47,784 nt of DNA from Mycobacterium sp. (lineage in GTDB: Bacteria > Actinomycetota > Actinomycetes > Mycobacteriales > Mycobacteriaceae). Under the pieces are notes generated by a model. It searched no databases. It was not told where the DNA came from and saw nothing but the letters and a program-made list of their open reading frames with translations. Shown in pieces: positions 2,693 to 47,665 of the stretch (position 1 is its first letter; each line of letters begins with the position of its first letter). The DNA lies in contig JAGQTV010000094.1 in assembly GCA_020438845.1 (NCBI GenBank), positions 1 through 47,784 on the forward strand. The letters are read 5' to 3'. The translations under genes and the position numbers were made by a program.

Positions 2693-3300
2693 GGACGAGT
2701 GCTTGAAGTTCGGTCGCCATCGCCCAGGTGCCGGACGACGTCGGTCGGAGCTTCGTTCGCCCAGAACGCCTTTGCACCTGGCGCCGGTCCACAAGCGCAC
2801 GCGCTCGTCATACGAGCTCTCGCGCGGACACTGCATTGGACAGCCTGCGTGTCGGACGAACTCAGCGGATCCGCCCTGACTGCTCCATCACCTGTGCGGC
2901 ACGTCCCGTCACAACGCGCCCCCTCCTTGCGCTGCACGTTCTCTGTGTTTCCGATCAGGACCGCAAGCGGCTTCTCCGCATTTCGTGGCGAATACGAGAA
3001 CCGTATCGTTCTACCCTTCTCGCGCCCGGCGCATGCAGAACAGGCGTAGAATTCAATCAGGACAGCGGCATTCCGCATATGACTGAACGGAGTTGTGTCG
3101 TCGCTGATTTCGGTGATCCAGTCCTTAGCGGCTGGGATGGGAGCGTCGCGATGACGCATCAACGGTTAAGCACCTGCTGCCACAAAGTCAGCTGCACAGC
3201 ACAATTGGCCCTCCCGCGGCAACAGCTGCTGAGCAGGGCCGCTGGGAATCCGAGGGCGGAGCAGTGAGTGGCCGCCGGAGGCTGGCAGGAGCACAGGGAT
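2693..3300. other. Gene-poor interval with a partial copy of the interspersed repeat
   Basis: No convincing gene is seen in these 600 bases; open frames on both strands lack ribosome-binding sites and recognisable motifs. The only structured item is at 2972-3012, where about 40 bases match the 3' end of the repeat found complete at 30.8, 34.2 and 47.5 kb. It includes an imperfect version of the AACCGTACGGTT palindrome at 2999-3010. Confidence 0.5.
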
Positions 3301-8713: not shown

Positions 8714-9564
8714 GCGGAATCCTCCTCGAAGAGATGTCGTAACGCGCGGCGGGCCATCACCGCTATGGCGTGACGCCGGTAGTCGGCGCTGGCCGTCACA
8801 TCCGTGACGGGGTCGGCGGACTGGGCCGCGGCCGCGCCGAAGGCCTCGGCCACGTCATCGTCGACTCGTTTTGCCTCCCAGTCGATTCCCGATACGGCGA
8901 TGGCCTCGGCGGAGGGCGAACGCACCGCGGTCGGTGCCACACTCCCGAGTGCGAGCCGGACCGAACGGGCCGGTTCGTCGACGACGACGGTCACGGATGC
9001 GGTGGCATAGCAGACCGCGTTGCGGGGCCCGACCCGGTAGTACCGTTGCGGCCCGGTAGCGGGCGTGAAACGGACCGCCGTGAGGATCTCGTCCTCAGCC
9101 AGAAGGGTTCCCTCGGGTGCGAGCACCTCCGAGAGTGGCATGCTGCGCTGGCCCTGCCGGCCCACGACGTCGACGACGGCGTCATAAGCCAGCAGGACAG
9201 GGATCAGTGTTCGCTGCGGCCCCCCGCCGCAGATGTTCCCGCCGACGGTAGCGCTGTTGCGGATCTGCCGTGATGCCAACGACCGAGTGGCATGGCCCAG
9301 AGCTGTGGATGGGGGTGCCAGTTGATCGTTGGCCCGAACCTCGGCGACGGTGCACGTTGCCCCTAACCGCCACTGGCCACCCTCCTGTTGAAGGCCGCGC
9401 AGTTCGCGCAGCCCGCGGAGGCTGACGAAACCCGTTGGCGGAGCACCTCTATTCACGTCGGCGACGACGTCGGTGCCCCCGGCGATGAGCCGTGCGTCCG
9501 GGTACGCGCCTCGAAAGTCGACCGCCTCCGCAAGGTTTGTGGGCATCAACAGCGTGCCGGTCAT
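8710..9564 (-). CDS. FAD-binding subunit of a molybdenum hydroxylase (CoxM/PaoB-like)
   Basis: The 284-residue product shows the FAD-binding motifs of the xanthine dehydrogenase medium subunit: RLIAGGTDVV (family ALAGGTDL) near residue 27 and ATVGGNICGGGPQ (family TVGGNIAxA) near residue 110. A C-terminal CO-dehydrogenase-flavoprotein domain ends in the AVMARRALRHLF helix. It forms the middle of the electron path from molybdopterin through Fe-S to FAD. It is translationally coupled to the 2Fe-2S subunit and divergent from the xdhC-like gene, with 63 bases between the starts. Confidence 0.92.
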   Translation of the reverse strand: MTGTLLMPTNLAEAVDFRGAYPDARLIAGGTDVVADVNRGAPPTGFVSLRGLRELRGLQQEGGQWRLGATCTVAEVRANDQLAPPSTALGHATRSLASRQIRNSATVGGNICGGGPQRTLIPVLLAYDAVVDVVGRQGQRSMPLSEVLAPEGTLLAEDEILTAVRFTPATGPQRYYRVGPRNAVCYATASVTVVVDEPARSVRLALGSVAPTAVRSPSAEAIAVSGIDWEAKRVDDDVAEAFGAAAAQSADPVTDVTASADYRRHAIAVMARRALRHLFEEDSA

Positions 9565-28349: not shown

Positions 28350-29310
28350 CCGTAACAGTCTCGACGGTGACCCCGCGTTACCGACGGTGGCGGGCAGATC
28401 CCATGGCAGGGACGGGTCGGCAACGTCGTGGGTGAACAACCCACGGTGCCCGGCAGAAGAAGATGCCGACGCCCTTGCACGCGGACGGATTGGGTGCGAT
28501 CCGCATGAGCGTTGATGACCGTCCGGCGGACAAGCCTTGTGGGCACTTGCGTTCTTGGTCAAAGTAGCCCGGCGCTTCTCGTCAATCTCTCCTGCATCTC
28601 GACAACACATGGAGATTCTCACTATCCGCTGCACTTGCAGTGCGATTTACCTGCTGGTTTGATCGATTTCTCGCGCGTTTGCACCTCTGATTTGCTCGCT
28701 GGGAACTGCACTTCCTAACCTGGCCCCTGTCCCTGGGTGTCCCTAGTGAGGGGCCTGCTGCGGCTGGCTGATGATGGCGCGAAGTGGGTGCAAGCGCCGG
28801 CAGCGGGATACAGCAAGAGGTCCGCCCCGAGCGCGGGCCGAGCCTGCAACACGAAACGCCTTGCAAACCGATAGAGCGCTGGACCGGGGTTAGCCTTCGT
28901 TGGCCGGCTGTTGCCGACCTGCGCCGAGAGATTGAGGTCGACGTGGCTGAGGACGCGGTTTCGGCAAGCGCGGTCAAGCCTTCAGCCCCGTGATGTGATG
29001 CCGCGACTGCGACGTGTCGCCAAGGCACACGGTCGATGGCTCTCGCCATGAGAGCCATCAACAGGACCGGGTTGGTAATTTCGGCTTTCCCGGTTCTGCT
29101 CTTGAGTGGTTCGTCGCGCCCGATCACCGACCTCAGATGGTGATCAGACAACCCCGCGTCCAGGCTGCGGTGGGATGCCGAAGAAGGCGGCGCGGCGCAG
29201 GGGTCCGTTCGAGTGAAAGAGCCCGCGCAGGGGTGTCCGAGCGCGCTAACATTTCTGGACTGTCGGTCGTTTTCCGATCGTGGTTTGGGACACCATAAGA
29301 GTTCGATGGG
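28350..29310. other. Gene-poor interval of about 1 kb
   Basis: No supported gene is seen. Long frames on either strand lack start signals and known motifs. The stretch includes a possible degenerate repeat (28630-28720) and a perfect hairpin at 29035-29059. Confidence 0.45.
29035..29059. terminator. Perfect ten-base hairpin
   Basis: GATGGCTCTC and GAGAGCCATC pair perfectly around a five-base loop. It lies in gene-poor DNA 250 bases before the next start and has no T-tract. It may end a transcript from either side, or be a structured relic. Confidence 0.4.
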
Positions 29311-30540: not shown

Positions 30541-30707
30541 GTGTTGAAGAAGTTGCAGCCAGCCAGATGGCTCTTGCCGGTGTGTGCGTCGATCATCGCG
30601 ATGTCTGAGATTTTGGCTTCGGACACACACGAGGAGGCTTGACTCGCTGGCGGCCGAAATTTCGCTGCTACTGCGGGGCGAGTACCCGACTAGCTAGCTA
30701 AGCTAGG

Positions 30708-30909
30708 AATTCTCGACTTAGCTGCACAAGTGCAGAAAAGTGCAGCCGTTGCCGAGGAGGGCCATCAGATTTGAGAACCTACAACTGTAGGTTCCGCTTT
30801 CGCTTGGCGAACCACCACGGCTCTGATCAGTGCAATTGGCTAGATTCCGGACGTGTTGGCGAAGGGGTTTATCCGGTTTTCGTGGCGAATCCGAGAACCG
30901 TACGGTTGT
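30708..30909 (+). repeat. Interspersed structured repeat, copy A (near-complete)
   Basis: About 200 bases are shared with 47360-47579. The 3' 119 bases (30791-30909) differ from that copy at only 12 positions, with no gap. It contains the hairpin GAACCTACA/TGTAGGTTC (two-base loop), a TGCACAAGTGCA near-palindrome and the palindrome AACCGTACGGTT at 30896-30907. There is no gene in it. Confidence 0.8.
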
Positions 30910-31053
30910 GCCGGTCTCGCCCGATGCTGCGAGCACACTATCGGGGTCGCTCTCGCTACCAGCTGCCCCTTCGCCCTATGCCCAGCAATCCGGAAACCTC
31001 GACCTGTGCCTCGGCCCGGCTACCACCGGCAGCTCTGAGGTAAAGATGTCCGC

Positions 31054-31497
31054 ATGACAACACTGCACGAGGCCGCAGGGCTGGCGAGCGGCGACAACGG
31101 CCTGGCTGTCGTATCAACATTGCGGGCCGATCACACCATCCAGGCATCGCTGGTCAACGCCGGCGTCGTTGCACACCCTTCCACCAACCTGCCCGTGCTG
31201 GGCTTTGTCACCTACGGACGAATCAAGCTGGCCAACCTGCGAGCACGCCCCCAGCTGGCTGTGACGTTCCGCAACGGCTGGCAGTGGGCGACGGTCGAGG
31301 GAACCGCTGAACTCGCCGGTCCCGATGACACCCAGCGATGGCTGCACGGAGCCGAGCATCTACGACTTCTCCTACGTGAAGTGTTCACCGCCTGCGGCGG
31401 TACCCACGACGATTGGAACGAATATGACCGCGTGATGGCCGAACAAGGCCGCACCGTAGTGCTCATCACGCCGACTCGGATTTACAGCAACGGTTAA
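31054..31497 (+). CDS. Split-barrel F420- or FMN-dependent oxidoreductase (PNPOx-like)
   Basis: The 147-residue product has the features of the PNPOx-like split barrel: GLAVVSTLRADHTIQASLVN for the first strands, KLANLRARPQLAVTFRNGWQ for cofactor phosphate contacts, and WATVEGTAELAG. It matches the F420-dependent TIGR03618-type group common in mycobacteria, which includes biliverdin reductases. The cofactor assignment is by family resemblance. It stands alone, 140 bases after repeat copy A. Confidence 0.82.
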   Translation: MTTLHEAAGLASGDNGLAVVSTLRADHTIQASLVNAGVVAHPSTNLPVLGFVTYGRIKLANLRARPQLAVTFRNGWQWATVEGTAELAGPDDTQRWLHGAEHLRLLLREVFTACGGTHDDWNEYDRVMAEQGRTVVLITPTRIYSNG

Positions 31498-31502
31498 CCG
31501 GT

Positions 31503-31679
31503 CTAGCGGGGCAGCAACGAGTGGGCCGCCACTGCCGCAGCCACTCGGCGGGCCGCCACCCCGGCAATGGTCCCAGCCAGCGCCCCCGCCTGGACCTCCC
31601 CGCGGGAACCTGCGGCTAGCTTGTCGGCCCGAAAGGTGTCGCGCTGCAGCCCACACCGCTCAGCTTCCTTGCCTTCCAT
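31503..31679 (-). CDS. Possible small basic protein
   Basis: A 58-residue frame (MEGKEAERCGLQRDTFRADK, then GALAGTIAGVAARRVAAAVA) ends five bases from the preceding gene on the other strand. It would have a polar N-terminus and an Ala-rich amphipathic helix. No ribosome-binding site is visible and no family is known. Weak call. Confidence 0.3.
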   Translation of the reverse strand: MEGKEAERCGLQRDTFRADKLAAGSRGEVQAGALAGTIAGVAARRVAAAVAAHSLLPR

Positions 31680-31759
31680 AACCCGGCACGTGACAACCTC
31701 GGCACCGGTAGGCACCGGAAGCCCACCGCAGCCGGGCGCGGCCGACCTATCCTTCGACG

Positions 31760-32152
31760 ATGAACACCCGATTCCGGCTGCGACGTTGCGCCACCGCTCT
31801 CACGCTCGCATCGCTACCACTGCTCGGCGTTGGGCTCGCGCCGAGCAGCCTGGCCGACGACATGGGGCCCTGCGGCTGGGACGTGGGCTCGATGGCGTGC
31901 CTGCAGTACTCGATAGGCGGAGCCGGCCCCAATGGCCCCTGCGGCTGGGACGCCGGCTCGATGGCGTGCCTGCAGGCTCAAACGGCAGCCGGCGCCAACT
32001 GCAGCCAGGGGGGAATCACGCCTACGACCGACTGCATGTGGTCTCCGAATGGCGGCTTCGACTACAGTCCGCCTGCTCCAGCTGCACCCCCCCTGACCCC
32101 TGCTCCAGGGGCACCGCCCGCCCCCGCCCCAGAGGTGCCTCCAGCTCCTTAA
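31760..32152 (+). CDS. Small secreted protein with a duplicated cysteine motif
   Basis: The 130-residue product has a signal peptide (RCATALTLASLPLLGVGLAP, cleavage near SLADD). The motif GPCGWDVGSMACLQ is repeated as GPCGWDAGSMACLQ 24 residues later. Two more cysteines (NCSQGG, DCMWSPNGG) follow, then a Pro/Ala-rich tail. The two motif copies are nearly identical in nucleotides, pointing to a recent internal duplication. The cysteines probably form disulfides outside the cell. Function unknown. Confidence 0.75.
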   Translation: MNTRFRLRRCATALTLASLPLLGVGLAPSSLADDMGPCGWDVGSMACLQYSIGGAGPNGPCGWDAGSMACLQAQTAAGANCSQGGITPTTDCMWSPNGGFDYSPPAPAAPPLTPAPGAPPAPAPEVPPAP

Positions 32153-32157
32153 CCCGG

Positions 32158-32361
32158 ATGCACCGATTCGGCAGCGGTGGTCGGTGGGTGGTGGCGGCGC
32201 TGCCGAACCTGTCTGTGGTGCAGATACCGCACGCGCCGGTGCAGCAATTGGCCCAGACTGTCGGTCGACGGGTCGGGGCGCAGGTGATGGTCATGGAAGG
32301 TCAGGTGATGATGACCGTGGGCGGAGTCGACGTCACTTTCACGCCCGAGCAACTGGAGTGA
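32158..32361 (+). CDS. Small hypothetical protein
   Basis: A 67-residue frame starts five bases after the secreted-protein stop: MHRFGSGGRWVVAALPNLSV, then a segment rich in Val and Met (QVMVMEGQVMMTVGGVDVTF). GGAG-like signals are weak and the family is unknown, but the tight spacing suggests one transcript with the upstream gene. Confidence 0.5.
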   Translation: MHRFGSGGRWVVAALPNLSVVQIPHAPVQQLAQTVGRRVGAQVMVMEGQVMMTVGGVDVTFTPEQLE

Positions 32362-32412
32362 ACGTCTGAGCCCGAGGTGCTAGGACGTTGCCGTCCCAGC
32401 TACGCTGAAACA

Positions 32413-32460
32413 GCTTGTCTCAGAGGATTTCATCTGAGCTTGTCTCAAATGCGTTTGAGA
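32413..32460. other. Tandem TGTCTCA hairpins
   Basis: GCTTGTCTCA occurs at 32413-32422 and again at 32438-32447. Each copy begins an inverted repeat: CTCAGA/TCTGAG around eight bases, then TCTCAAA/TTTGAGA around four bases. A 14-base perfect palindrome (TGGCGGATCCGCCA, 32562-32575) follows further on. There is no gene. It resembles a recombinase-binding array. Confidence 0.5.
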
Positions 32461-32747
32461 TTCTTCTCGCGGATGAAGTCGAGCAGATGTTCACCGCGAA
32501 CCTCGGCTAGACGTGCCGGGGCGCGCTCAGGATATTGAATCTCCCGCGCGTCTCACGAATTTGGCGGATCCGCCATCGCGGGTGAGATTCCGCCACGAGC
32601 CGTGAGAACCTACAACCACCACTGTAGACGGTATGGGGGCTAGCTGAGGCCCGAAGGCCTCGTGCTGCAAAAGGATTCGTGGGTTGCCGGCGTGGGTGAA
32701 CACTCGCGCTGGTAGTGCCACATTTGCAGATCAGGAGGCCTCCGGTG

Positions 32748-33825
32748 ATGGTTCAGGGTACGAGTGTCGGGTTGGACGTGCATGCGCTTTCGGTTGTCGC
32801 GCATGGCATTGACGAGGAGACGGGCAAGATTGCTCGGGCACGGTTGTGTCCGGACTACGGCGAGGTCCTGGGTTGGCTGGGCCAGCTTCGGGCCCCGGTG
32901 CGGGTGACCTATGAAGCGGGCCCGACCGGGTTCGGGCTGGCGCGGGCGATCAAGGCCGCGGGGATGACTTGCCTGGTCGCCGCACCGTCGAAGCTGCAGC
33001 GCCCGGCCGGGGATCGGATCAAGACCGATGCCCGCGACGCCGCACACCTGGCCCGGCTGTTGCGGCTGGGTGAGATCACCGAAGTGGCGGTCCCTGAGCC
33101 CGAGATCGAGGCGGTCCGCGATCTGGTGCGGGCCCGCGAAGACCCCAGAGCTGATCTGATGCGGGTGCGACACATTGTCGAAATTGCTTCTGCGGCAGGG
33201 CATCATCTACTACGGCGGAACGGCCTGGACGGGCAAAGACGAGCAATGGCTGCGTCGGCAACGCTTCGCGGACCGCCACCTCAGAGCGGCCTTCGACCAC
33301 GGCTTCGACGCCGTCCTGGCGGCGACTGCGGCCCGCGATCGCCTCGATGAACAGATCCTGGAGGTGGCCGCCTCGCCCCGGTTCGCCGACCCGGTCAACC
33401 GGCTGGGCTGCCTGCGCGGCATCTCGGCGCTGACCGGCCTTGCGTTGACCGTGGAGATCGGTGACTGGTCGCGGTTCACCGGATCCTCGATCGGCGCCTA
33501 CGTCGGGCTGGTGCCCTGCGAGCACTCCTCGGGAGGCTCCCGCGTTCAGGGCTCGATCACCAAGGCCGGCAACACCCACGTGCGGCGGCTGCTGATCGAG
33601 TCGGCCTGGCATCACCGCAAGTCCTACAGCACCTCCGGGCCCACACTGCGGGCCCGCTGGGCCAAGGTCGATCCCGCCCTGCGGGCCCGCGGCCATACCG
33701 GCAACCGCCGATTGAACAAGCGCTGGCAGGGCTTCATCGAACGCGGGAAGAACCCGATCGTGGCCAACGTCGCCATCGCCCGCGAACTGGCCGGCTGGTG
33801 CTGGTCCCTGGCCACTCTGCAGTAG
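32748..33825 (+). pseudogene. IS110-family transposase, frameshifted
   Basis: The N-terminal part carries the DEDD/RuvC-like domain (SVGLDVHALSVVAHG, later DRIKTDARDAAHLARLL). The C-terminal part carries the Tnp_20 domain with its conserved serine region (GLVPCEHSSGGSRVQGSITK). They lie in two frames. At about 33174, CGACAC-A-TTGTCGAAATTG has one extra base; removing it restores RVRH followed by LSKLLLRQGI. AGGAGG lies about ten bases before ATG 32748. The element is therefore likely immobile unless the second element or a relative acts on it. Confidence 0.88.
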
Positions 33826-34067
33826 GGCCGCACCCTGAACCTGACTGGGCCCGGCTGATCAAGCAGCGACGCGGTGAGTGAACGAATCTGCGGAGAACCT
33901 ATGAGCCACAGCATGATTGACACACATGAGTGCCGGTGACGCTCGATTGTAGACAGCAGTACCGTTCACATCCGAACATCGTCCTGCGGTACCCAACCCG
34001 CGCATATCAGCCTGACACCACCGTCGTGAGCAACGACCGTCGCCGCCCTCACCAGGCCCAGTCAAAC

Positions 34068-34101
34068 GAAAGCCGCCCCGGCCACCGTCGGGGCGGCTTT
34101 C
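34068..34101. terminator. Strong terminator hairpin near the right end of IS110 element 1
   Basis: A perfect 13-base stem (GAAAGCCGCCCCG with CGGGGCGGCTTTC) encloses eight bases. The CTTTC after the GC stem gives a short T-run on the plus strand, and the reverse reading is equally good. It lies 35 bases before the repeat resumes. Confidence 0.75.
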
Positions 34102-34135
34102 ACCTACCCTCTTCACGAAATGGCCTCCATATCAG

Positions 34136-34254
34136 GTTCCGCTTTCCCTTGGCGAACCGGCGCAGCGCTGATCTGCAGTTTCGATGATTTTCCGCTCATC
34201 GTGGCGAAGCGGCTTTTCCGCTTTTCGTAGCGAATCCGAGAACCGTACGGTTGT
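34136..34254 (+). repeat. Interspersed repeat, copy C (3' part)
   Basis: Exactly 119 bases align without gaps to copies A and D. Both ends are nearly identical (GTTCCGCTTT and GAATCCGAGAACCGTACGG) and the middle is diverged. The palindrome AACCGTACGGTT is at 34241-34252. The 5' half appears to lie on the far side of the IS110 element. Confidence 0.7.
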
Positions 34255-34340
34255 GCGGGTTTGGCGCAGCCCCCGAACTGCGACGGCACCGTCGGGCTGT
34301 CGTTGACCGACCGTTGAGACGTCTTGGCCACTGCATGGCC

Positions 34341-41710: not shown

Positions 41711-41814
41711 ATTGAGACAACAACATTCAACATGAGAACCTGACCTGAGTTTCTTCGTTTCGTCTCACGTCGTTTCATGCGCGGCCTGTCTCACAAACGA
41801 TTTCATTTCCTAAT
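41711..41814. other. Cluster of GTCTCA motifs upstream of IS110 element 2
   Basis: ATTGAGACAA (inverted, 41711-41720), CGTCTCAC (41761-41768) and TGTCTCAC (41787-41794) occur within about 85 bases, the last two each followed by CG-x-TTTCAT. The arrangement recalls the hairpins at 32413-32460, which lie a similar distance upstream of the other IS110 transposase. No gene is seen from 41599 to 42082. Confidence 0.45.
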
Positions 41815-43310
41815 GGGAACCGATCGGTGTGGCGTTGGCCGCGGCTTGGCCCTGGTGGCGGGATGCTGAGCCGCTGAGCCGCTGACCGGTGAGCACTGCC
41901 ATTTCCTGGGGTGTAGGTCGATTCCTAGCGCTAGATCGTGCCCCGGTCGGTTCGGTGAGGTCGCTTGTAGCGCTGATGGGGTGTCGTGCCGGTATGAGCA
42001 CTGATCCATTAGGTCGCCGCCAGGTGTCCTCGGGCTCGCCGAAAGAGATAGCGAGGGAACAGGACTGGAGGAGGTGGCATGGATGGTCTTCGTCGGCGAT
42101 GACTGGGCCGAAGACCATCACGACGTGTATCTGATGGATGAGGCCGGCACTCGGCTGGCCTCTCGGCGACTGTCTGAGGGCATGACCGGAATCCGAGCGC
42201 TGCACGAGTTGATCGCGGCGCACTGCGATGACCCCGCGCAGGTGGTGGTCGGGATCGAGACCGACCGCGGGCTGTGGGTGACCGCGCTGGTCGCGGCGGG
42301 CTATGGGGTGTGGGCGATTAACCCGATGGCCGCGGCGCGGTACCGCGACCGCCACCACGTCTCAGGGGCCAAGTCGGACAGCTCTGATGCCAAGCTGCTG
42401 GCCGATCTGGTGCGCACCGACCGCCACAACCACCGCCAGGTCGCCGGAGACACCCCCGCCGCCGAAGCGGTCAAGGTCCTCGCCCGGGCCCATCAGAGCC
42501 TGATCTGGGCGCGGACCCGGCACGCGAACATGCTGCGTAGTGCGCTGCGCGAGTACTACCCCGCCGCGCTGGAAGCCTTCGACACCCTCACCGATCGCGA
42601 TGCCCTGGCGGTGCTCGGGCGAGCACCGACCCCGGCACAAGGCGCCCGGTTGAGCCTGGCCAAGATCAGTGCCGCGCTCAAATCCGCAGGGCGCCAACGC
42701 AACATCGACGCCCGGGCCCGCGACATCCACGCCGCGCTACGCACCGAGCACCTGGCCGCACCCGAGGCGGTCGCCGCCGCGTTCGGGGCCACCACCACCG
42801 CGGCGGTTCATGTCATCGCCGAACTCAACGACCAGATCGTCGAGCTCGAGACCGCGTTGGCCGCCCATTTTGAGACACACCCGGACGCCGACATCTACCG
42901 CTCCCTGCCAGGACTTGGTGTCATCCTCGGCGCCCGGGTGCTCGGTGAGTTCGGGGACGACCCGAACCGCTACACCACCGCCAAGTCTCGCAAGAACTAC
43001 GCCGGAACCTCTCCATTGACCATCGCGTCGGGCAAGAAACGCGCCGTGCTGGCCCGCCACGTGCGCAACCGACGCCTCTACGACGCAATCGACCAATGGG
43101 CCTTCTGCGCGATAACCAACAGCCCCGGCGCCCGCACCTTCTACGACGCCCACCGCGCCGCCGGCGACACCCACCACCAAGCCCTGCGAGCCCTGCGCAA
43201 CCGCCTCGTCGGCATCCTGCACGGCTGCCTACGCCACCGCGCCCACTACGACGAACACAAAGCCTGGGCCCACCGCGCTGCCGCAGCAGCTTGACGCCTT
43301 ACAACCCTGG
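41815..43310 (+). mobile_element. IS110-family element 2 (apparently intact)
   Basis: A complete transposase frame sits behind about 270 bases of non-coding DNA, the usual layout of the IS110 subgroup, whose 5' end encodes the bridge RNA. No terminal inverted repeats or target duplications are visible, as expected. The edges are estimates. The element abuts a truncated flavin-reductase-like gene on its right. Confidence 0.65.
42083..43294 (+). CDS. IS110-family transposase
   Basis: The 403-residue product has the N-terminal DEDD/RuvC-like domain (VGDDWAEDHHDVYLMDEAG, VVVGIETDRGLWV and SGAKSDSSDAKLLADLVRTD). The C-terminal Tnp_20 domain follows (LPGLGVILGARVLGEFGDD, YAGTSPLTIASGKKRAV). In this family a serine in the second domain performs recombination guided by a bridge RNA. 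ATG 42083 has GGAGGAGG about eight bases upstream. All recognised motifs are in one frame, unlike element 1, so this copy could be active. Confidence 0.93.
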   Translation: MVFVGDDWAEDHHDVYLMDEAGTRLASRRLSEGMTGIRALHELIAAHCDDPAQVVVGIETDRGLWVTALVAAGYGVWAINPMAAARYRDRHHVSGAKSDSSDAKLLADLVRTDRHNHRQVAGDTPAAEAVKVLARAHQSLIWARTRHANMLRSALREYYPAALEAFDTLTDRDALAVLGRAPTPAQGARLSLAKISAALKSAGRQRNIDARARDIHAALRTEHLAAPEAVAAAFGATTTAAVHVIAELNDQIVELETALAAHFETHPDADIYRSLPGLGVILGARVLGEFGDDPNRYTTAKSRKNYAGTSPLTIASGKKRAVLARHVRNRRLYDAIDQWAFCAITNSPGARTFYDAHRAAGDTHHQALRALRNRLVGILHGCLRHRAHYDEHKAWAHRAAAAA

Positions 43311-47359: not shown

Positions 47360-47579
47360 AATTCTCAGTTTCACTGCACAAGTGCAACGGAAGTGCAGGC
47401 AGTCACTGAGAAAGTTCAGTCGGAACTGAGAACCTACAAACAAACAACAACAACCTGTAGGTTCCGCTTTCGCTTGGCACACCACGAGAGCTCCGATCAG
47501 CGCAATTGCCGAGATTCCGGACGTGCTGACGAAGGGGTTTTTCCGGTTTTCGTGGCGAATCCGAGAACCGTACGGTTGT
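47360..47579 (+). repeat. Interspersed structured repeat, copy D (near-complete)
   Basis: It matches copy A over the whole unit: the CTGCACAAGTGCA region at 47373, the hairpin arms GAACCTACA and TGTAGGTTC (here with a 17-base A/C-rich loop), and the 119-base 3' part at 47461-47579 (107 of 119 identical). AACCGTACGGTT is at 47566-47577. It ends 87 bases before the IS21-type istB stop codon. Confidence 0.8.
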
Positions 47580-47665
47580 CCAGAACTTCGCACGAGTGGT
47601 ACACCCAGGGTTTTGAGAGCGATCGTGCGGGAGCACCACACCATGTGATGGTCAGCCTGGCAATG

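Follow-up and report, generated by a model that had tools for sequence, protein, structure and literature searches.

Full copies of an intergenic repeat in a Mycobacterium contig as probable junctions between Tn7-like transposon ends

The intergenic repeat of about 200 bp found in a 47,784-nt stretch of Mycobacterium sp. DNA (assembly GCA_020438845.1, contig JAGQTV010000094.1, designated C77; hereafter the window) is very probably a composite structure, in which each full copy represents the RE of one Tn7-like transposon meeting the LE of the next one in a head-to-tail arrangement (probability approximately 0.93). The unit breaks at an apparent hairpin that reads ...GAGAACCTACA, spacer, TGTAGGTTC...; the arms of this hairpin, GAACCTACA and TGTAGGTTC, are two facing transposon termini, and its loops are the DNA located between neighbouring elements. 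The outermost termini of the ends have the form TGTAGG.../...CCTACA, and several short repeats were read by eye in each end, both LE and RE, which by their sequence and arrangement are putative TnsB-binding sites.

The repetition itself, described in a first-pass annotation of the sequence, is real. A BLAST comparison within the window aligned copy A (30708-30909) with copy D (47360-47579) at 78% identity over 220 columns and an E-value of 3e-46. This alignment includes 18 gap columns, and the description of the repeat as gap-free accordingly applies to part of the unit, namely to copy C against copy D (gapless over 34134-34254, 75% identity), but not to A against D. Copies C and A were aligned with 79% identity over 129 columns, four of which are gaps. 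Copy B, which extends from 2965 to 3023 according to BLAST and from 2923 to 3012 according to the profile, and copy C match the right-hand part of the unit only. The palindrome said to be kept in all copies in this or a close form is indeed present as an exact AACCGTACGGTT in copies A, C and D and as AACCGTATCGTT in copy B, and the loop lengths of 2 and 17 bases had been given correctly. Two other contigs of this genome, C79 and C93, hold further copies. With profiles generated for both types of ends, the LE profile yielded 106 bits (30786-30911), 104 bits (47456-47582), 98.5 bits (34134-34256) and 48 bits (2923-3012) and the RE profile 58 bits (30707-30783) and 65 bits (47361-47438), scores that are inflated by construction because the sequences used for training included the window copies; the BLAST E-values therefore provide the cleaner evidence. 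The profile scores are nevertheless far above the maxima of 10.6 bits (LE profile) and 8.8 bits (RE profile) obtained with 50 shuffled copies of the window, in which only 2-base blocks were preserved.

The ends and elements of the window are all oriented on the plus strand. The first full junction begins with the RE of a Tn7-like element to the left (30707-30783), which contains CTGCAC-type repeats and terminates with ...GAGAACCTACA at position 30783; this type of end also adjoins tnsA in the genomes G020, G302, G378, G184 and G196. A 2-bp spacer AC (30784-30785), corresponding to the short loop, separates this RE from the P-type LE of the next element (30786-30911), which is characterized by TTCCG-N-TGGCGAA repeats and belongs to an LE family that is also present in the G233 array described below. 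By our inferred pairing of the ends, this LE and the RE terminating at 32614 delimit a probable small non-autonomous element of 1.8 kb (30786-32614), with ORFs for an F420-dependent PPOX oxidoreductase (31054-31497) and a second protein (31567-32361) in its interior. The RE in question (32550-32614) carries TTCTCAC-N-TGGCGGA repeats and GGCGGATCCGCC and resembles the RE adjoining tnsA in G306 (L092). It is followed by an 8-bp spacer ACCACCAC (32615-32622) and by copy C, which is another RE/LE junction, split by an IS110-family element. The first bases of the copy C LE, TGTAG (32623-32627), are severed by this element (32628-34133) from the remainder of the P-type LE (34134-34256) that had been noted as the third copy. 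The IS110-family element was recognized by tblastn and by Pfam Transposase_20, its borders were set by comparison with G395, and its reading frame is broken near position 33173.

The second full junction comprises a CTGCAC-type RE of an element to the left (47361-47438), a 17-bp spacer AACAAACAACAACAACC corresponding to the long loop (47439-47455) and the P-type LE of an element extending past the end of the contig (47456-47582). The fourth copy (2923-3012) is a partial P-type LE that has lost its outer terminus. A decayed LE at 41737-41771 (16.2 bits versus 8.6 bits in 50 shuffles) could be paired with the RE at 47438, and a possible decayed CTGCAC-type LE at 28611-28637 is perhaps the partner of the RE at 30783, although this weak candidate is not significant alone (8.3 bits versus 8.6 bits in shuffles). 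The window showed no RE of the P type. The genes located between the ends are either cargo or old chromosome; among their products are the F420-dependent oxidoreductase, a ParE-type toxin, BacA, PAP2, a sensor kinase and a response regulator. A tblastn search of the window at E 1e-4 detected no match to tnsA, tnsB, tnsC or tniQ. Since the window is devoid of recognisable transposition genes, the elements in it appear to be non-autonomous or decayed. The earlier proposal of a non-autonomous mobile element was nearly right, except that the repeat consists of ends of such elements and is not one element.

The search of mycobacterial genomes that had been proposed with the first annotation did reveal further copies. 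Within the genus, the unit was matched in 116 of 396 genomes, including its own, at E <= 0.1, and in at least 33 of the 396 at E <= 1e-5, the latter number being a lower bound because scoring was confined to two candidates in each genome. In the genomes other than the own, strong matches (E <= 1e-5) cover either the right half or the left half of the unit, with the exception of one match of 37 query bases that spans the hairpin itself (query positions 60-96). It was from these separate matches across the genus that the composite nature of the unit first became apparent; the repeat annotated as a single unit of about 200 bp is made up of two, an RE part plus an LE part.

A scripted search of the loci, covering spacers of up to 20 bp, yielded a set of 32 back-to-back junctions, in which probable chance pairs, such as two from L080, were left. 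The spacer measures 5 bp in 12 of these junctions, 4 bp in seven, 2 bp in three and has other lengths in ten; compared with this commonest spacer of 5 bp, those of the window are 2, 8 and 17 bp long. Between facing termini of the own genome, spacers of 2 bp (A), 4 bp (C93), 17 bp (D) and 67 bp (C79) were found. According to a reading by eye, P-type repeats are present on either side in at least eight of the 32 junctions, and same-family elements therefore adjoin each other.

Several long spacers and flanks are triplet-like in appearance, including CAACAACAAC, GCAGCAGCAGC, GTCGTCGTCGTC and CCGCCGCC (for instance at 47439-47455 of the window, in L028, L029 and L068 and in L003 on C79). Such flanks may reflect a target preference or scars from repeated insertion and loss. 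On the own contig C79 (L022/L164), at about positions 250-410, several truncated transposon ends are apparently crowded within approximately 150 bp.

The conserved stem and the variable loop had originally been regarded as a sign of selection on structure. A structured RNA or a regulatory hairpin under pairing selection would account for the palindrome as well as for the complementary arms, which are found in both full copies and are fully complementary in 17 of the 32 junctions. The remaining junctions, however, deviate from the consensus pairs 29 times, at six positions; one deviation is compensated, six result in G-T and 22 break the pair, within an arm variation that was itself limited because the search fixed ACA/TGT and one C and tolerated no more than two mismatches in each arm. 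With a single compensated deviation among 29, covariation in the stem is absent, an outcome that the first annotation had listed as a refutation. Moreover, single arms are kept where no partner faces them, for example beside dnaB, and no Rfam family was detected at the copies at gathering scores, the sole match of the window lying elsewhere. Based on the non-covarying arms and on this Rfam result, a structured RNA was rejected as very improbable.

It is likewise improbable that the whole 200-bp unit moves as RE plus LE in the manner of a small non-autonomous MITE-like element. The three own-genome junctions A, D and C93 do share one order, with a CTGCAC-type RE followed by a P-type LE, but strong matches in other genomes cover one or the other half, the spacer between the halves ranges from 2 to 67 bp in A, C93, D and C79, and the P-type LE also faces other types of RE. 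As each half is also found on its own or next to a different partner, an element moving as one unit was rejected. Gene blocks separated by palindromic sites also recall integron-like attC cassette recombination sites between cargo genes, an explanation considered extremely unlikely on the basis of the 5-bp duplications and of the tns genes, since tnsABC-tniQ adjoin ends of this type, each of which carries several repeats. Junctions between Tn7-like ends are thus the preferred reading of the repeat, and the initial suggestion of a protein-binding site came near the mark, as the ends carry repeats that resemble transposase sites.

In related genomes, genes with predicted functions in transposition are located directly beside such ends. 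In G354 (L076), the RE (9016-9093) adjoins four inward-reading genes, the proteins of which match Pfam Tn7_TnsA-like_N, Mu-transpos_C, TniB/AAA_22 and TniQ, respectively, and a P-type LE starts 4 bp past this RE. The CTGCAC-type RE, which is the type of copies A and D, adjoins matches to tnsA, tnsB, tnsC and tniQ in G020 and in both copies of G302. The TnsA protein of G020 matches NCBIfam TnsA_like_Actin (9.8e-73), its Pfam score being under the Pfam cut-off. Comparison of the G020 TnsB with solved TnsB chains yielded E-values of 5.6e-19 for 7svw and 8rdu, 7.8e-10 for Tn6677 and 2.6e-4 for Tn7, and that of TnsC with the solved structure of Tn6677 TnsC a value of 6.8e-7. From these similarities, the elements of the relatives are predicted to carry the DDE transposase TnsB, the endonuclease TnsA, the ATPase TnsC and a TniQ/TnsD protein. 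As read, the TniQ proteins at L079:2925-5909 and L076:2250-5240 comprise about 1000 aa and contain a C-terminal LysR-type HTH_1 domain, which is a possible candidate for the target-reading part.

To characterize the insertion sites, 53 loci representing the surroundings of TnsB or tnsA matches were examined, some of which overlap (L090 and L078 belong to one G302 element). An RE terminus upstream of tnsA was recognized in 24 of them, which is a lower bound because the terminus pattern is strict and misses, for instance, the RE of L058; none was recognized by pattern in the other 29. In 15 of the 24 loci with a recognized RE, 13-18 nt separate the end of the DnaB match from the RE terminus, and the flanks of the remaining nine are other than dnaB or lie outside the view. 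In G191, G206 and G233, P-type REs (TGTAGGTTCCGCTTTTCGATGGCGGAATTCCGC...) adjoin tnsA and lie 15-18 nt beyond the DnaB match. In the dnaB gene of G378 (L087:1-621), an intein splicing domain immediately precedes the C-terminal portion, which is the part next to the transposon; the G378 query piece also matches DnaB_C.

Exact 5-bp target duplications were identified in four of 12 elements of the relatives, namely GATTC in G061, ACTTG in G357, GAACT in G308 and TTGTG in G306. Of the others, three lacked an LE candidate in the DNA examined, three lacked a matching candidate and two are the copies of G302. These two near-identical elements (L078 and L079) share GGAAC crosswise, the LE flank of one being equal to the RE flank of the other, and their other flanks (TCATC and ATCCG) mismatch. 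Recombination between the copies could be one explanation of the crosswise flank.

A stacked arrangement of such elements is found in G233. The row starts with dnaB and a P-type RE at 89650, continues with tnsA, tnsB, tnsC and two TniQ matches up to 98499, the second of which is on the opposite strand, and reaches a P-type LE at 109882. After 5 bp, a P-type RE at 109888 and a P-type LE at 124841 follow, and after another 5 bp a P-type RE at 124847 and a P-type LE at 134509; a further junction is located at 149655/149660. The flanks and spacers of this array are unlike one another. The second and the third element possess both ends, and no match to TnsA, TnsB, TnsC or TniQ was detected in them at E 1e-6. 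Blocks with matching ends that are devoid of recognisable transposition genes therefore exist.

In the own genome, dnaB is located on contig C110 (603-2534, minus strand) and encodes a protein of 643 aa with matches to DnaB_C (1.4e-96) and TIGR00665 (1.2e-157). The RE terminus that follows it at C110:575 has repeats of another type (TTTCAT), and next to dnaB a TnsA fragment (NCBIfam 1.2e-43) runs off the end of C110. A whole-genome search with a TnsB protein query, which gives matches of 52-55% identity in relatives, yielded no TnsB in the own assembly; this assembly consists of 118 contigs, with a break inside tnsA. When the own genome was searched with the P-type RE of G206, three matches were obtained, all of them short, at C79:385, C32:7630 and C93:3456; the best two, each with an E-value of 0.007, cover bases 1-26 (C79:385) and 36-65 (C32) of the query. 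It is plausible that the window belongs to the dnaB island of C110, although located on a separate contig.

IS110-family elements were also observed in the outer LE terminus of other transposons. They occupy one position (TGTAG / AGGTTC) in copy C of the window (32623-34139), in G395 (L162) and in G314 (L071), and the right-hand boundary of the IS110-family element in L072 of G314 is identical to those of the other three. The LE sequences beyond these insertions differ, which suggests independent insertions that target the terminus. A comparable insertion of IS110/IS1111-type elements into a transposon terminus is known from IS4321/IS5075 of the IS1111 family, which, according to the title of a study cited in PMC11187229, target the terminal repeats of the Tn21 family, whereas the target here is the TGTAGGTTC terminus of Tn7-like ends. 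The sole match of the window at Rfam gathering scores, the actinobacterial sRNA Ms_AS-4 at 42904-42985 on the minus strand, is located inside the ORF of an IS110-family transposase (42074-43294), on the strand opposite to it.

Tn7 itself is characterized by the gene order tnsA-tnsB-tnsC-tniQ/tnsD inward from the RE, by a 5-bp target duplication and by a target immunity that discourages same-family neighbours. The elements described here resemble Tn7-like transposons in the order of the tns genes in the relatives, the arrays of subterminal repeats, the 5-bp duplications and the insertion just past a conserved gene. The ends of Tn5053/Tn402 (tni) elements contain repeat arrays with CTGCAC-like cores as well; by contrast, the elements described here have TnsA, and many of them are located at dnaB.

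Tn7-like elements, the repeat arrays of their ends and neighbouring insertions giving several LEs and REs have been described, and the accessible part of that study includes a clade dominated by Actinobacteria with no experimentally characterized member (Benler et al. 2021, PMC8649781). Compared with that clade, the site is here the 3' end of dnaB, and the window is without detected transposition genes. As far as the accessible text tells, Tn7706 of Rhodococcus erythropolis contains tnsA, tnsB, tniB and tniQ, occurs on plasmids and islands and shows flanks exchanged between copies (PMC12915292); it thus resembles the present elements in its actinobacterial tns gene set and in a flank exchange as may have occurred in G302. 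In Mycobacterium avium subsp. hominissuis, genes for TniQ, an ATP-binding protein and a protein with a Mu-transposase C-terminal domain, with arsenic genes a few kb away, were reported as recombination hotspots (PMC12584985); these are similar genes in a mycobacterium, and the portion of the report available to us mentions neither TnsA nor ends nor dnaB. No title dealing with Tn7-like elements at dnaB or with mycobacterial arrays was present among the matches listed in a literature search conducted mostly without subscription journals. Accordingly, the kind of transposon is known, and mycobacterial dnaB-anchored arrays with transposase-less cargo blocks seem to be little described.

With regard to mechanism, TnsB together with TnsA would cut at these ends, as in Tn7, and TnsC and a TniQ/TnsD protein would guide new copies to the 3' end of dnaB. 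Elements arriving at one site in succession would then be stacked, each about 5 bp away from its neighbour. The window would be part of such a stack, containing ends and other genes and no recognisable transposition genes, and its elements would move only with proteins supplied from elsewhere, or be decayed. A further-reaching and rather speculative idea is that the cargo stored beside dnaB in mycobacteria keeps growing, with one tns-bearing element serving transposase-less blocks in trans, the blocks being inserted about 5 bp apart even beside ends of their own family, and with IS110-family elements that target the termini and thereby lock the blocks in place. If true, this stacking of elements of one family would imply that the group has weak target immunity or none.

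An apparently mysterious repeat is turned by these data into a set of mappable boundaries, and the end profiles enable the delimitation of DNA borne by Tn7-like elements in mycobacteria even in regions without transposase genes. The dnaB site along with the same-family stacking makes target choice and immunity testable in what may be a clade without experimentally studied members.
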